DNA from: Streptomyces graminofaciens
Lineage (GTDB): Bacteria; Actinomycetota; Actinomycetes; Streptomycetales; Streptomycetaceae
Assembly: GCF_030294945.1 (NCBI RefSeq)
Contig: NZ_AP018448.1
Coordinates: forward strand, 4,556,001 to 4,620,000
Length of the DNA stretch: 64,000 nt
Reading direction: 5' to 3'
Position numbers and translations under genes: made by a program. How positions within the stretch are numbered: position 1 is the first letter of the stretch; the number at the start of each line of letters is the position of its first letter. Positions 80 to 6,905 of the stretch are shown here, one piece after another. The notes beneath the pieces are model-generated. The model was not told where the DNA came from and ran no database searches. It saw nothing but the letters and a program-made list of their open reading frames with translations.

Positions 80-523
80 ATGGATTCAGCCGCGCAGACC
101 GCCGTGACGCCCGCGCAGGCCTCCGCGGACGCGGAAGCCGTGCAGAGATTCGAGGACCTGTCCTTCGACGTGTTCGCCAGGAACTGTCCCTCGCGGGGCA
201 CCCTGGAGCACGTCACGGGCCGCTGGGGCGTGCTCACGATGGGCGCACTCCACCAGGGCACGCTCCGCTTCAACGAACTGCGCCGCCGCGTCGACGGCGT
301 CAGCGAGAAGATGCTCTCCCAGACCCTGCACGCCCTGGAGCGCGACGGCCTGGTGCACCGCGAGGCCCAGCCCACCAACCCGCCGCGTGTCGAGTACACG
401 CTCACCCCGCTCGGCCGCGAGGTCTCCGAGCGTCTGCGATCCCTCATCGCGTGCGTGGAGGACCGCATGGAGGACGTGCTCCAGGCCCGCGAGCGTTACG
501 ACGAGGCCCGCGGCGCCCGCTGA
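80..523 (+). CDS. HxlR-family winged-helix transcriptional regulator
   Basis: This is a 147-residue DNA-binding protein of the HxlR family. The family core is visible: the start of the domain ([19 protein letters not shown]), the [20 protein letters not shown] helix-turn-helix and the wing with [11 protein letters not shown]. No partner sensor domain is present. Start: ATG at 80 is preceded by a short GAGG; an upstream in-frame GTG at 59 is possible but would begin next to the palindrome at 21-56. The 3' end overlaps the convergent mutM gene by 28 bases. The target is probably a divergent redox or detoxification gene outside the window, as is common for this family, but it cannot be seen. Confidence 0.85.
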
Positions 524-1356
524 CACTTCGGGCAGTAGTAGCTGGACCGGTTCATCCAGGGCCGCCGCCGCATCGGCGTGGCACAGCGCCGGCAGGGCAG
601 CCCCTCCCGTCCGTACGCGTCGAGCGACCGGTCGAAGTACCCCGATTCGCCGTTGACGTTGACGTAGAGACTGTCGAAGCTCGTGCCGCCCACGGCGAGG
701 GCGGCGTTCATGACGTCTCGTACATGGCCCAGGAGTTCGGCCGTGCGCGGGCGGGTGAACCCGGCGGTGGGGCGTTCGTAGTGGACGCGTGAGCGCCAGA
801 GCGCCTCGTCGGCGTAGATGTTGCCGACACCGCTGATCAACGACTGGTCGAGCAGGGCCCGTTTGATGGTCGTGCGCTTCCGGCGCAGCGCCTGGTGGAA
901 GGCCTCGTCGTCGAAGAGCGGGTCGAGGGGGTCACGGGCGATGTGCGCGATGACGTCGGGCAGTCCGTCGGGGGTGGTGTCGTGCAACGAGAGCCCGCCG
1001 AAGGTGCGTTGGTCCACGAACCGCAGTTCGGTGCCGAGGTCGTCGGCGAACCGTACGCGGATCCGCAGGTGCTTCTCGTCGGCCGCGTCCTGCGGCTGGA
1101 CCAGCAGCTGGCCGCTCATGCCGAGGTGGGCGAGGACCGCGATGCCGGTGTCCTCCACGGGCAGCCACAGGTACTTCCCGCGCCGGCTCGGCTCCCCGAT
1201 CCGGTGCCCCTTGAGCCGGTGCGCGAAGTCGTCGGGGCCGGCGAGATGCCGCCGGATCGCGCGCGGGTGCAGCACCTCGACGTCGGCGACGGTCCGGTGC
1301 GCCACCCAGCGCTCAAGGCCACGTCGTACGACCTCGACCTCGGGAAGTTCGGGCAC
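496..1356 (-). CDS. mutM: Formamidopyrimidine-DNA glycosylase (Fpg/MutM)
   Basis: This is the base-excision-repair enzyme that removes 8-oxoguanine and formamidopyrimidines and nicks the abasic site. The 286-residue protein begins [11 protein letters not shown], giving the catalytic N-terminal proline (after Met removal) and glutamate. Lys61 in RRGKYLWL matches the conserved DNA-contact lysine. The C-terminus has the zinc finger with C-x2-C (CRRC) and C-x2-C (CPKC) pairs. The GTG start has a GGAGG ribosome site 5-9 bases upstream. It normally follows rnc in Streptomyces; here a STAND ATPase gene lies between them. Its end overlaps the convergent HxlR gene. Confidence 0.96.
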
Positions 1357-1408
1357 GGGGTCCTCCGGGAAGCGGCTGGGCGGGTGACGTCGGCAGCGTA
1401 CCGGGTGG

Positions 1409-3898
1409 TCAGGGGGTGTCGGTGAGGTGGCCGTCGGAGGTGAGGCCGCGGGTGCGCAGGGAGCGGGCCTCGGCCTCCTTGCCCTGGGCTGCCAGGACGT
1501 CGGCGAGGGCGTCGGCAGCGAAACGGTCGCCTCGGTCGATCAGGATGCGCAAGTCGTCGACGCGGCCGTGTTCCCTGAGCAGATCACGCAGGCGCGAGTC
1601 GCCGTCGGACCTCTCCATGAGGAACCGCACGGCCCCGTCCACGTCGCCGTGCGCCACGAGGGCGTCGACGATGTCCGAGTGGGTCCGGCTGTCCGTGCCG
1701 TGGCGTATCGCCTCGTCGAACTCGCCCCGGGCGAGGAGGAGTCGGACGAGTTCGCGGGCCGCCCATTCGTCTCCGGCCGAGGCCCGTGCCCGCAGCCGGG
1801 CCTCGTCCGTGGTCCGGCGCAGCAGCCCGGCGAGCGAGGAGGCCGCGTAGACCTCACCGGCGTCGGCCAGGGGCGTCAACAGGGCCACCGCCCGGTCGGC
1901 TTCGCCGCGCGACCGGAGCCACTCGGCGGCTTCGACGGCCGCGTCCACGTCACCGTCCTCGGCGCGTTCGAGCAAGGCGTCGAAGTCGCCCCGCTCCACG
2001 AGGAGCCGGGCCAGCAGGGAGTCGATGTCCCGGTATCCCTCGCCGGCGAACTCTTCGAGGACGTCCAGCGCCTCGTCGGTCCGCCCCTTCTCGTGGAGTG
2101 CGTCGGCCAGGAAGTACGCCGCCGCGAAGTACCCCTCGTCGGTCAGCTCCCACAGCCGGTCCAGCCGCCCGCTCCGCTGGAGGAGTTCGGCCAGGAAGGA
2201 GATCGCGTCGTCGTACTCCTTCTCCACGAGCATCTCCAGGATGGGGATGGCCCGTTCGTCATCGCCCTCGTCGTGGAAGAGCTCGGCGAGCCGCTTATAG
2301 GACCAGAGGTCGCCGGGCTCGATCTCCTCGATCAGCAGGGAGATCGCCAGTTGTGGATCGCCGTACTCGATGAGATGGCTGACGGCGTACTCGTTTCCGG
2401 CCTCGGCCAGGTCGAGGATCTCCTCGAAGTCCCAGCCCGCGAGGACGGTCCGGTACAGCGGGGCGTCGGGGTGCTCGGAGGTGGACAACAGGTGCGCCAT
2501 CTCCTCGGCGCCCAGCTGGTCGCCCATCGTCCGGAAGAGGGTGCCCAGCTCCTGTGTCGCGGACGCCGAGCCCGCCTCCACGGCCCTGCGCAGCAGCGGT
2601 ACGGCCACGGCGAAGCGCTGCCGGGCGACCGCGGAGGTGCCGAGCCGACGGGCGTCCGCCGGGTCGCGCAGGTGCTCCGCGCACGCGTCCCAGAAGGACT
2701 GCGGCGGGGGCGTGGCCCGCCGCTCGCGGCCGATGTGCTGTACGAGGTAGTCCGCCATGCGGTAGCCGTCCGGGCGGCCCATCTCCTGGCCGTCACTCGC
2801 GGGGCGCAGGGGTGCCGTGGCACCGAGGAGTTCCCGCGTGACGTACGCCAGGGCCTGTTCGAACCAGTCGGCGGGCGCCGCGGCGCGTTCGGCGGGTGTG
2901 CAGTAGCCCGGGACCGCCGACCGCAGCAGGGCCTCGGGGAGCGCGGACCGCGCACCGAGGACGGTCAGATCCGCGGCCGCGGCCAGTACCGCTCGCGCAC
3001 AGGGGTCGGCGCTCTCCCAGCGGTGGACCAGCTGCGGGGCGCCCGCGATGACCTGGGTCAGGCCGAAGTCCGTCGACGCGAGGGCCGTGCGGAGCCGCTC
3101 GTCCGTGACCGCGATCTGCCGGGCCCGCTCCCGCTCGGCGGCCGTGAGGCCCGTCGGCACATGGACGACCTCGGCCAGCTTGAGCAGGTCCCGCTCGGTG
3201 CGGTAGCGGTCGTCTTCCTTGGGTGAGGTGTGCGGTGCCGTGTACGCGTCGTAGTAGCCCGGCCAGAGCGTCGCCACGACCAGGACCTGGCGGGGCGGTG
3301 CCATCAGGGCGCGCAGGGTGGCCGCGGTGAGGCCGTGCTCGCCGGCCAGATGGTTCTGGAGTTCGTCCAGCCAGAGCACCAGCGGCCCGGGCGGGAGTTC
3401 GAGGAGCCGTTCGACCTGTTCCGCGTCGGCCGGGTGCAGCAGCGGCCAGTCGGGCACTCGGTCCAGGACCGCCTCGTACAGCGAGCGCGTCTTGCCCACG
3501 GAGGAGCCGCCGACCAGCAGGACGAACCCGCTGCGGTCGGCTGCCCGCCCGATCAGCTCGCGCAGTCCGCCGTGTCCGGGAACGTCCAGGTCACGCGGTA
3601 CATAGCCGGGCAGGGGCGGTGTGGCCGGGCCGGTGAGCCGGATGGGCCGGTGCACTCCGAGCCGGAACGGATCGGCGTCCCGCACCCGGATCGGCTCCGG
3701 CCCGCGGCTCGCCCGGGGCACCGCGCCGGACGGCGTCACCACCAGGACATCGCCGACGACCTTGCCGATCTGCAGGCTGTGACCGCCGATGACGGTTCCC
3801 GTCAGGCGGTTCGTCACCGTGCCGTCGTCGGCCGGGGCCGTGCTCCGACGTGGCTCCGCGCTCGCGAACGGTCCTGAGATTCGGTCCGGCTCCGCCAC
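1409..3898 (-). CDS. STAND/NLR-like P-loop ATPase with RHIM-like N-terminal motif and TPR-like repeats
   Basis: An 829-residue protein of unknown specific function. Residues 30-54 form a Gly/Val-rich motif with a central LQIG, resembling bacterial amyloid-signalling (RHIM-like) motifs found on NLR-type proteins. A P-loop ATPase follows: Walker A GGSSVGKT (about 130-137) and Walker B VLWLDEL (about 174-180). From about residue 450 to the end are degenerate helical repeats ([33 protein letters not shown]) of TPR/Sel1 type, the usual sensor arm of STAND proteins. Start: the GTG at 3898 has GGAAGGGG upstream; an in-frame GTG at 3991 lacks one. It sits between rnc and mutM on the same strand. Calling it a defence or programmed-death switch is inference; no effector domain other than the putative amyloid motif is seen. 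Confidence 0.8.
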
Positions 3899-3937
3899 CC
3901 TGTTCCCCTTCCGGCGCCGGGGCCGCTCGGCCGTGGC

Positions 3938-4010
3938 CTGACCTCCGCATACCGAAACCCCCACCGGACGGGAGTCCGACAGGGGTTTCACGGCATGTGC
4001 GGAGGGTCAG
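3938..4010. other. Long nested hairpin after rnc
   Basis: Three nested arm pairs occur between the rnc stop and the STAND gene: an outer pair (3938-3949 with 3998-4010, one bulge), a perfect 8-bp pair (3954-3961 with 3982-3989) and an inner CGGAC/GTCCG stem with a GGGA-type loop (3965-3978). It may be the rnc terminator. As a double-stranded RNA directly downstream of the RNase III gene it could also be an RNase III substrate. There is no T-run. Confidence 0.6.
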
Positions 4011-4831
4011 GCCGGGGCCGTGTCCGACGAGGTGTCGGGGGCCTCGGCCTCGGCGGCCGTCGCGGCTTCCTGCTTCGCGCGCTCGTCCGCCGCGGAGCGG
4101 ATCGCACGCCAGGCGGACTCGGCCGCCTGCTGCTCCGCTTCCTTCTTGCTGCGGCCGGTGCCGGTGCCGTACGAGACGCCTCCGACGCGGGCGGCAGCGG
4201 TGAAGGTCTTCTCGTGGTCCGGGCCGGTCTCCGTGACCAGGTACTCGGGGACGCCGAGCCCTTCGGTCGCGGTGAGCTCCTGGAGGCTGGTCTTCCAGTC
4301 CAGGCCGGCACCGAGGTTCGAGGACTTCTCGATCAGCGGGTCGAACAGGCGGTGTACCAGTTCGGACGCGGCGTCGAGGCCCTGGTCGAGATAGACGGCG
4401 CCGATCACCGCTTCGAGGGTGTCGGCGAGGATGGACGCCTTGTCCCGGCCGCCCGTGCCCTCTTCACCGCGGCCGAGCCGGATGAAGGAGCCGAGGTCGA
4501 GCCCACGGCCCACCTCCGCCAGCGCACGCGAGTTGACCACCGCGGCCCGCAACTTGGCCAGCTGGCCTTCGGGCAGGTCGGGGTGGGTGTTGTACAGCGT
4601 GTCCGTGACCACGAGGCCGAGGACGGAGTCCCCGAGGAACTCCAGGCGCTCGTTGGTGGGCAGGCCGCCGTTCTCGTACGCGTACGAACGGTGGGTCAGC
4701 GCGCGCACCAGAAGGGCGGACTCGAGCTTGTACCCGAGCCGCCCTTCCAGAAGCGTGTGGGACGAGGCCGTGCTGTCCGCCGACGGGTTACCTCCGTTTG
4801 CACGGAGAGCGTTCTTCTTGGCGTCAGACAT
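4007..4831 (-). CDS. rnc: Ribonuclease III
   Basis: Endoribonuclease for double-stranded RNA (rRNA and mRNA processing); in S. coelicolor the orthologue AbsB also controls antibiotic production. The 274-residue protein has the RIIID signature [12 protein letters not shown] with its catalytic acidic residues, a second acidic site DTLEAVIGA, and a C-terminal dsRNA-binding domain (about 175-245, ending with [16 protein letters not shown]). A low-complexity Ala/Glu tail follows. Start: ATG at 4831 with GAGAGG upstream gives the usual MSDAKK start; the frame is open further upstream but without family similarity. It lies 20 bases after rpmF in a yceD-rpmF-rnc operon. Confidence 0.96.
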
Positions 4832-4851
4832 GGTGCCTCTCACCAGCCCGC

Positions 4852-5025
4852 TCAGACCTCGAGGACCTGGCGCTTGTTGTAGGTGCCGCACGACGGGCAC
4901 GCGATGTGCTGCAGCTTGGGCTCGTGGCAGCGCTCGCACGCAACCAGGGTGGGGACCGCAGCCTTCCACTGCGACCGGCGGTGGCGCGTGTTGCTGCGCG
5001 ACATCTTCCGCTTCGGAACAGCCAC
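4852..5025 (-). CDS. rpmF: 50S ribosomal protein L32 (zinc form)
   Basis: A 57-residue large-subunit protein, starting [17 protein letters not shown] as L32 does. It keeps both cysteine pairs (CERC at 30-33 and CPSC at 43-46), so this is the zinc-binding paralogue rather than the zinc-free form made under zinc starvation. GTG start with AGGAG 7 bases upstream. Only two bases separate it from the yceD stop, so translation is probably coupled. Confidence 0.96.
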
Positions 5026-5027
5026 GG

Positions 5028-5681
5028 CTACTTCTCCTGCTTCTCGTTGGCGGGCGCCGATCGAGGCGCTTCGCCACTCATCTCGTCCTTCTCGCCATCT
5101 TCGAGTGAACCGGCGAGTCCCTGCAGTGCCGCCCAACGGATGTCGACGGCGTCGTGGTGGTGGGCCGGGTCGTCCGCGAGCCGCGCTCCGCACTCGGAGC
5201 ACAGGCCGGGGCAGTCTTCCTGGCACACCGGCTGCATCGGCAGTGCGAGCACCACCGCATCACGCAGCACGGGTTCGAGGTCGAACAGGCCGTCCTCGAT
5301 GAAGAGCCTGTCCTCGTCTTCCTCGGCGTCGTCGGCCGGCTCCGCCTTCACGCGGCCCCGGTCGTCGGCGTCAGGGTACGAGAACATCTCCTGGAAGTCC
5401 GCTTCGAGCGGCAGCTCCAGCGGCTCCAGACACCTTACGCACTCCCCTGCGGCCCGTGCACGGGCGGTGCCTGTGACGAGCACACCTTCCATGACCGACT
5501 CCAGACGGAGTTCGAGATCCAGCGGGGCGCCTTCCGGCACTCCGATGACTCCCTGGACACCGAAGTCCCCCGGAGTGTCGACCGTACGCGTCAGGCGCTG
5601 CAGCGCGCCGGGCCGCCGGCCCAGCTCGTGCGTGTCGAACACGAGAGGGTTGCGGTGGTCGAGGCGGGCGTTCAAAGCCAT
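5028..5681 (-). CDS. YceD/DUF177 family protein
   Basis: A 217-residue member of the YceD (DUF177) family, which across bacteria precedes rpmF and is linked to 23S rRNA/large-subunit maturation. The family core is seen as [14 protein letters not shown] and, later, [13 protein letters not shown], giving cysteine pairs that may bind metal. The acidic linker (about 113-130) and Lys/Glu-rich end are typical of the actinobacterial form. It heads the yceD-rpmF-rnc operon, ending two bases before rpmF. ATG start; the ribosome site is weak. Confidence 0.9.
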
Positions 5682-5849
5682 TTCTGCTTTCGGTCTTCAC
5701 TGCTGGAGGGAGGGCACTGCCCCCCGGTGTTCCGGGCAGCGCTCGATCGCGGGCATCTTCCGCATACCGCGTGAACGCAGGACAGCATGAACGCACGCGC
5801 GACCGAAGAGCCAGGATACTGGACCTTCCGCTCTCGGCCCAATCCGCTG

Positions 5850-6905
5850 TCAGCGACCCTGTTCGTAGCGGCGCAGCTGCTCCGCGGTGATCATGGTCGT
5901 GTCGAAGAGACTGGTCTCGTCGAGGGCGTTGTCCTCGGCCTGCGCGTACCCGTGATGCCCCTGGTGCCCCTGCTGCTCCTGGTGGCCCTGGTTCGGGTCG
6001 TACGACGGCTGCTGCGGGTAGCCCGCCGCGTACGGGTCGGCCTGCTGGTACCCGTAGGGGTCGGCCGCCTGCTGGGGCTGGGCGTACTGCTGCTGGTAGC
6101 CGTACTGGTCCTGCTGCTGGTACGCCGTCGCCTGGTACGCGTCCTGCCCGTACGACTGCTGGACCGGGGCGGCGGGGGTCTCCGTGAGGGCCGCGAGGTC
6201 GGCGAGGTAGTCGGCGTCGCTGGTGGGCTGCGGGGAGGTGCCGTCGTCGTGCAGGGCGAGGGCGCCGAGGTCGTCGGTGGCGATGCGGCCGTGGAGCTTC
6301 TGGCGGCCCCGGCCGACGGCCTCCAGGGTCTTGGCGAGGACCGCCTCGAAGGCGCCGAGCTTGGCGTCCACATAGGTGTCGGCGTCGCGGCGCAGGGTCT
6401 CGGGGTCGTGGCTGCGCTCGGGGGCGTCCTCGTCCTCGTAGCCCTGCTCGTCGAGGCCGGGGCCGGTGCCGAGGAGCTTCTCGCGACCGCGGCCGACCGA
6501 GCCGAGGGTCTTGGTGAGGACGACCTCGAAGTTGGCGAGCTTGGAGTCGACGTAGTCGTCGGCCTCGGCGCGGACCTCCTCGGCCTCCTGGCGGGCCTCG
6601 GTGAGAATGCGGTCGGCCTCGTTCTGGGAGCGGCGGGCGACCTCGGTGTCGGAGATCAGGGAGCCGCGCTCTGCGTGCGCGTTCTCGATGATCCGCTCGG
6701 CCTCCAGACGGGCCCGCTCGACCATGTGCTCGCGGTCGCCGATCAGCTCCTGCGCCTGGGCGAGGGAGTCGGGCAGCGCCGCGCGCACCTCCTCCAGCAT
6801 GGCGAGCAGTTCGGCGCGGTTGACCACGCAGGAGGCCGACATGGGCATGCCCCGGGCGCCGGAGACCACCGAGACGATCTCGTCGAGCTTCTTCTGGACG
6901 TCCAC
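5850..6905 (-). CDS. DivIVA-like coiled-coil protein with Gln/Tyr-rich tail
   Basis: A 351-residue cytoplasmic protein of the actinobacterial DivIVA-like (cell-division-initiation) group, sometimes named after ATP synthase subunit b because of its coiled coil. Residues 1-130 are mainly charged helix (AEADRILTEARQEAEEVRAE). Two copies of a YVDSKLANFEVVLTKTLGSV / YVDAKLGAFEAVLAKTLEAV segment (about 115-140 and 175-200) show internal duplication. The tail (about 240-340) is low-complexity Gln/Tyr/Pro. A scaffold role near the envelope is inferred from the family. GTG start; GGCGAG lies a few bases upstream. It stands alone between yceD and coaD. Confidence 0.8.
   Translation of the reverse strand: MDVQKKLDEIVSVVSGARGMPMSASCVVNRAELLAMLEEVRAALPDSLAQAQELIGDREHMVERARLEAERIIENAHAERGSLISDTEVARRSQNEADRILTEARQEAEEVRAEADDYVDSKLANFEVVLTKTLGSVGRGREKLLGTGPGLDEQGYEDEDAPERSHDPETLRRDADTYVDAKLGAFEAVLAKTLEAVGRGRQKLHGRIATDDLGALALHDDGTSPQPTSDADYLADLAALTETPAAPVQQSYGQDAYQATAYQQQDQYGYQQQYAQPQQAADPYGYQQADPYAAGYPQQPSYDPNQGHQEQQGHQGHHGYAQAEDNALDETSLFDTTMITAEQLRRYEQGR

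Follow-up and report, generated by a model that had tools for sequence, protein, structure and literature searches.

The gene that separates rnc from mutM in the stretch of Streptomyces graminofaciens DNA analysed here (the window: 64,000 nucleotides, positions 4,556,001 to 4,620,000 of contig NZ_AP018448.1) most probably represents the receptor half of a two-gene amyloid-signalling module of the BELL/NLR type ("BASS-like"), which occupies the rnc-mutM junction in a minority of Streptomyces and has been orphaned in this strain; this degree of confidence extends to the mechanism proposed below. The receptor is called an orphan because its private partner gene is missing here. Bacterial amyloid signalosomes of the BASS / BELL-NLR type were reportedly described by Dyrka et al. 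2020. Such systems are treated in PMC7889193, PMC8086366, PMC9815663 and PMC12261475 and, according to the excerpts of PMC7889193 and PMC9815663, were discovered through searches for adjacent receptor and partner genes. In the pairs described in the excerpt of PMC7889193, one motif is found on both the N-terminus of the receptor and the C-terminus of the partner, the two being encoded by adjacent genes. The features of the locus are listed in Table 1.

Table 1. Features of the rnc-mutM locus in the window (positions are those of the window; residues are those of the receptor).
Feature	Position	Strand	Basis or remark
mutM, flank of the insertion	496..1356	-	Matches in 150/150 genomes, including its own
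STAND-like receptor gene	1409..3898	-	829 aa, GTG start; motif, P-loop ATPase and TPR
TPR/helical-repeat arm, residues about 400-829	1412..2701	-	Pfam TPR_19, structure model, TPR matches
P-loop ATPase region, residues about 71-345	2864..3688	-	Invariant P-loop and WLDE columns; Pfam AAA_16 below cut-off
Walker B LVLWLDE, residues 173-179	3362..3382	-	Sequence, homolog alignment
Walker A GGSSVGKT, residues 130-137	3488..3511	-	Sequence, homolog alignment
N-terminal amyloid-type signalling motif, residues 30-56, core LQIG, Q43	3731..3811	-	Homolog conservation, partner-tail profile match, model strands
rnc-receptor gap, 108 bp	3899..4006	-	Some relatives carry a BELL-like partner gene here; partner absent in the window
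Shine-Dalgarno-like AAGGGGA ahead of the receptor GTG start	3904..3910	-	Read by eye
rnc (RNase III), flank of the insertion	4007..4831	-	Matches in 149/150 genomes, including its own

The NLR-like layout of motif, P-loop ATPase and TPR arm, proposed in a preliminary description made from the DNA alone, was borne out by the homolog alignment, in which the Walker motifs are invariant across the receptor family, and by the Pfam scan, in which TPR_19 matches the window receptor at an E-value of 5.9e-13 and TPR repeats are all that Pfam places above cut-off. The predicted structure model shows a helical solenoid over about residues 400-820. A P-loop with Walker A and B followed by a helical-repeat sensor places the protein among the NLR/STAND ATPases, and this order is shared with STAND NTPase-TPR receptors (bacterial NLRs, Avs, PDB 6mfv). 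Unlike those receptors, however, the window protein has an ATPase that no Pfam, NCBIfam or padloc family covers above cut-off: Pfam AAA_16 matches it below cut-off, the NCBIfam scan gave two matches, both far under their cut-offs, and the padloc scan gave none at E ≤ 1. The ATPase is STAND-like, yet the window protein's list of 13 families contains neither NACHT nor NB-ARC, and the same holds for the 25 listed of the 45 Pfam families matched by 21 receptor members at E ≤ 1. Profile alignment (hhalign) of the receptor with an NB-ARC protein of its own genome gave a probability of 81 over 142 columns, which span the motif and the P-loop. In the Foldseek search with the receptor model, PDB 6mfv ranked sixth (E 2.3e-6) with a TM-score of only 0.14-0.17, and the ATPase fold was barely probed by this search because TPR proteins dominate the matches. 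The receptor family also contributes a class of ATPase that would escape searches for NACHT or NB-ARC.

A search of a large protein set yielded 791 receptor homologs at E ≤ 1e-5, and the top 120 of these were listed. The best 25 are close homologs (46-100% identity) from Streptomyces, Actinosynnema, Amycolatopsis, Nocardiopsis and metagenomic entries. Alignment of the 21 homologs with an N-terminus present, which excludes the window's own protein (P0001) and four proteins with an annotated start downstream of the motif (P0014-P0017), revealed a conserved segment, N-R-V-x-x-S-V-V-G-G-D-S-x-Q-I-G-x-V-H-G-D-V-x-V, between variable flanks; Q43 is found in 21/21, G45 in 20/21, and R31 and G49 in 20/20 each. 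A profile trained on 23 partner proteins (see below), from their C-terminal tails alone, scored residues 25-60 of the window receptor at 22.4 bits, a score reached by none of the 18,761 scored sequences among 20,000 shuffles of the window sequence (best 18.2 bits). The Gly-spaced motif around LQIG noticed in the preliminary description is therefore real; its 26 letters lie at residues 29-54. The predicted model places strands at residues 30-37 and 40-47, over the motif, with pLDDT under 50. Among the next 95 homologs (P0026-P0120 of the best 120), the Pfam column of the homolog table gives a TIR domain (PF13676) for 50 and a trypsin domain for 5, and a re-scan of eight of the more distant homologs found two TIR and two trypsin domains above cut-off. 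Since many distant homologs bear TIR or trypsin at the position of the motif, the motif occupies the effector slot. As judged from sequence, the receptor shows one mark of a BASS/BELL-NLR signalosome, a short motif that heads an NLR-like protein, and the data support a motif that would behave like a bacterial amyloid-signalling (BASS) adaptor, for which fibril formation is predicted.

The core of RHIM is (I/V)QxG. The window motif shares a hydrophobic-Q-x-G core, and the character of a short Gly-spaced segment, with RHIM, fungal PP and BASS3 motifs, so that the likeness to RHIM in the preliminary description holds for the core. The PP core signature, given as NxGxQxGxN in the excerpt of PMC9815663, is not found in the window family: around the Gln, the 21 homologs carry G/R/E at position -4, S/V/L/A at -2 and V/I/A at +4, none of which fits in any of the 21, and only the Gly at +2 does. 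Membership in RHIM/PP was therefore rejected.

Comparison of rnc-mutM spacing confirmed that the two genes are normally neighbours in Streptomyces, as the preliminary description had stated: they are adjacent on one contig and strand in 146/149 other Streptomyces genomes, with a median gap of 159 bp (range 13 to 1,024) between aligned ends, a measure that is slightly overlong where the rnc alignment ends early. The gap was unmeasurable in the other three genomes (rnc without a match, mutM row unlisted, or different contigs). In the window, the distance is 2,653 bp. The longest gap sampled, 1,024 bp (L097, G095:C32:44200-46300), contains no receptor or partner match.

At E ≤ 1e-150, the receptor was found in 2/391 other genomes, and at E ≤ 1e-60 in 1/149 other Streptomyces genomes, that one with a different N-terminus. 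All seven close Streptomyces homologs examined (L015-L018, L020, L104 and L105) lie between rnc and mutM; L105 is nearly identical to the S. curacoi locus L015 (partner 99.3% identical), and the seven loci therefore count as about six independent ones. Neither MutM nor RNase III was matched at the loci of the more distant Streptomyces homologs L058 and L088 or of the non-Streptomyces homologs L019 and L021. The rnc-mutM gap of genome G040 (L098, G040:C1:7456400-7458300, about 1050-1564) holds pieces that match receptor residues 30-78 and 717-823 only, and these are a decayed receptor remnant. Insertion of the gene, as suggested in the preliminary description, agrees with the window distance against the usual spacing, but a recent random insertion was rejected given the site shared by 7/7 loci; because of this shared site and the G040 remnant, an older gain followed by repeated loss fits better. 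The receptor gene is site-specific and rarely kept. A literature search found no receptor at rnc-mutM, although one may still be in print. Profile matches to the motif, related copies in the genome and rarity at the site are the reverse of the combination that the preliminary description had named as speaking against its reading.

In L015, L016, L017 and L105, a protein of 144-145 aa with the same motif at its C-terminus is encoded between rnc and the receptor gene; in L016, about a dozen bases separate its stop from the receptor start. Profile A2, built from the receptor motif, finds the partner tails when run over 19,206 ORFs drawn from the loci and from the window (L016 at 8e-7, L017 at 2.7e-3, L015 at 5.8e-2). 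In the reverse direction, the partner-tail profile ranks three receptors above every unrelated ORF, those of L016 (9.6e-4), L015 (1.5e-3) and the window (1.5e-2); the three partner proteins head this list by construction, being in the training set, and the L017 receptor is absent among the 22 best matches. In relatives, the motif of the receptor thus recurs at the C-terminal end of a protein encoded next to it, as in BASS pairs, and the layout appears to be the published BELL/NLR "BASS" one.

The partner proteins are 64-68% identical to that of L015, and no Pfam or NCBIfam family reaches its cut-off with them. Their family comprises at least 140 proteins at E ≤ 0.001 (best 120 listed), with a conserved helical part and C-terminal tails of several unrelated-looking types. 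In its model, the partner forms a bundle of helices, and the tail has a pLDDT under 50; a PDB structure search with this model gave no match. BELL domains are small helical bundles that include a hydrophobic helix, and the partner may carry one. Nine of the 25 close receptor records pair with a partner record by equal size of the source sequence. In P0199 the BELL-like partner domain is fused to NB-ARC (Pfam PF00931), as it is, by eye, in P0226, and these fusions support a functional link between partner and receptor. Co-evolution of cognate motifs was not seen among 7 pairs, for which 1,110/5,040 permutations reach the cognate score.

In the window, tblastn with six partner proteins against the rnc-receptor gap found only the receptor's own motif. 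Across the genome, the partner profile A3 found no matching partner; it gave three hits, at E 0.10, 0.24 and 0.61, of which the second is again the receptor's own motif. This strain holds the receptor half only, and no BASS pair with this receptor was found in its genome. Receptors without an adjacent partner (solo) also occur in G228, where the protein is 80% identical to the window receptor, and in L018, L020 and L104. In a tree of 29 rows, with 11 rows of undetermined partner state counted as non-solo, the solo state takes three changes, at least two of them forced by well supported branches. We infer that the absence of the partner reflects loss here rather than gain elsewhere. Between the window and G228 receptors, omega is 0.41 for the whole protein and, by region, 0.32 (ATPase), 0.49 (TPR arm) and 0.64 (motif, 27 codons), while mutM has an omega of 0.07 between the same two genomes; the corresponding values for the paired loci L015/L017 are 0.26 for the receptor and 0.13 for mutM. 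The receptor is constrained but fast-evolving, and its pace relative to mutM is higher in the solo pair; with one comparison each, the values agree with relaxation as well as with diversification.

The preliminary description had predicted an effector with the same motif elsewhere in the genome. Related copies are indeed present, in a distinguishable subclass, but the matching partner is instead the adjacent gene in relatives. Profile A2 over the genome returned only the receptor itself as significant (1.5e-12, the next match having an E of 0.77). The broader partner profile A4 gave one match (E 2e-4), L106 (G000:C1:9605474-9605848(+)), which appears to be a remote BELL relative (hhalign probability against BELL, 93.7). 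Its tail reads HNVISGGVQHGNVIQAHTLGNVTLG, and the tails of its family (105 proteins at E ≤ 0.001, Streptomyces mostly) vary around HNxISGGVQHGxVIQAHTVGDLTIG. Profile A5, made for this tail type, matched eight places in the genome at E ≤ 0.011. Three are near a C-terminus (L106, an alpha/beta-hydrolase-like ORF and a 176-aa ORF), and the other five lie near the N-terminus of a 1,304-aa protein, a 755-aa ATPase-TPR protein, an NB-ARC-TPR protein and two ORFs, one of membrane type and one short and NB-ARC-like; a NACHT protein is a weaker match (E 2.98). The A5 motif presumably resembles tags seen in other Streptomyces proteins. The 176-aa ORF (L113/L124) aligned with BELL at an hhalign probability of 5.7, too low to class it as BELL. 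The 755-aa protein (L125, G000:C1:5775000-5784000, 3446-5710(-); C1:5,780,395) is distantly paralogous to the window receptor (BLASTP 6e-16, hhalign probability 99.7), aligned from the motif onward. As it carries the other motif subclass, the genome holds one receptor chassis with two motif subclasses.

Fungal HET-S/NWD2 and HELLP/PNT1 pairs, in which a receptor passes an amyloid fold to a membrane-active partner, offer a likeness of mechanism with the hand-over proposed for the present module. The TPR arm would sense a trigger, upon which the STAND-like ATPase would exchange nucleotide and oligomerise. The N-terminal tags of 25 residues, brought together in this way, could nucleate a beta-arch that templates the matching C-terminal tag of the small helical, presumably membrane-active partner, and the partner would then harm the cell, causing an abortive death in what would be a defence role. 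In the window strain, which has no private partner, the receptor may signal in trans, homotypically, or no longer. Within the excerpts of the BASS / BELL-NLR literature, the common points are the N-terminal receptor motif, the C-terminal motif of a small helical partner next door (in relatives), a filamentous actinobacterial host and an ATPase-TPR receptor. Unlike those systems, the window receptor has an ATPase with no NACHT/NB-ARC match among the families listed, belongs to a family at one fixed site, lacks its partner in this strain and is without the PP core.

The orphaned state raises the question of whether a receptor of this kind can still signal when it has no partner of its own. One answer, which we regard as rather unlikely, is that the orphan has been rewired in trans and uses other motif effectors, namely L106, the alpha/beta-hydrolase-like protein or the 176-aa ORF of L113. 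The occurrence of a related motif near the C-terminus of three proteins and near the N-terminus of several receptor-like ones is consistent with this, as are the 755-aa paralog with its other motif subclass and a receptor that stays open under the omega found between two solo genomes; however, the A5 and A2 profiles miss each other's targets, the window gene and L106, at E ≤ 10. A receptor that is a functionless leftover in solo lineages is also unlikely. The higher omega relative to mutM in the solo pair, the G040 remnant, the altered motif core (QFV) in L020 and the omega of the motif itself would agree with decay, but the ORF is intact in both the window and its 80%-identical relative, omega stays below 1 and is lowest in the ATPase, and the Walker motifs and the Q-x-G core are intact. 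An improbable reading of the motif is that of a non-amyloid docking hairpin which, comparable to effector-associated domains, would pair receptor and partner without cross-beta polymerisation. The two strands modelled within residues 30-47 would suit such a hairpin, and homotypic adaptor domains (EADs) occur in related systems (excerpt of PMC7159879); yet the motif is a short segment with Gly/Gln spacing, modelled as a fold with low confidence, and the receptor N-terminus/partner C-terminus layout is the one published for amyloid motifs (excerpt of PMC7889193).

A two-gene module orphaned in this strain remains the preferred reading. A wider arrangement, tentative and quite unlikely, is an amyloid network in trans, in which a few shared effectors (L106 and the alpha/beta-hydrolase-like protein) would serve many receptors that differ in ATPase class and bear exchangeable tags at the N-terminus, and in which the private partner at rnc-mutM was discarded more than once because a takeover in trans was possible. 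Such a network, if true, would be the bacterial counterpart of sensor/helper NLR networks, with amyloid templating as its basis. With a receptor family at one fixed locus, a partner present or missing by species and a genome with further effectors and receptors that bear related tags, private-pair and shared-network signalling can be compared directly by experiment.

Further observations concern the window and other loci of the genome. A scan of positions 1300-4150 for a sigma-70 promoter and a T-tailed terminator gave nothing; an inverted repeat, GAAACCCC...GGGGTTTC, was seen by eye between rnc and the receptor gene, at window positions 3954-3989, and had been missed by the T-tail terminator scan. 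L106 is a solo small helical protein between, by eye, an SDR-type and a nucleotidyltransferase-like gene. The alpha/beta-hydrolase-like ORF (C1:7,042,959-7,044,239; L123 2960-4240(-); Pfam match just under cut-off) carries the C-terminal motif NNTISGGVTNGPVIQAGSV. Its divergent neighbour (L123, G000:C1:7040000-7046000, 3882-5999(+)) is an ATPase-TPR receptor with the N-terminus NTITGGIFFHTVIQGRDVTV, a motif called by eye and matched by A5 at an E of only 4.0. At L127 (G000:C1:3221500-3228500), a 143-aa ORF (2654-3082(+)) combines a motif with, by eye, an NB-ARC-like N-terminus and is followed by the ORF 3239-5065, possibly a broken gene. The 1,304-aa protein (L128, G000:C1:3775500-3784500, 2743-6654(+)) is of the iHD-CE/HD-CE/wHTH-Hsp90-associated conflict type, with the motif near its N-terminus. 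Another receptor paralog (L002, G000:C1:11377648-11378913(+)) shares 36% identity over residues 30-459 and has an N-terminal HNTMQGGSVGKLWQVGKLFLN segment.
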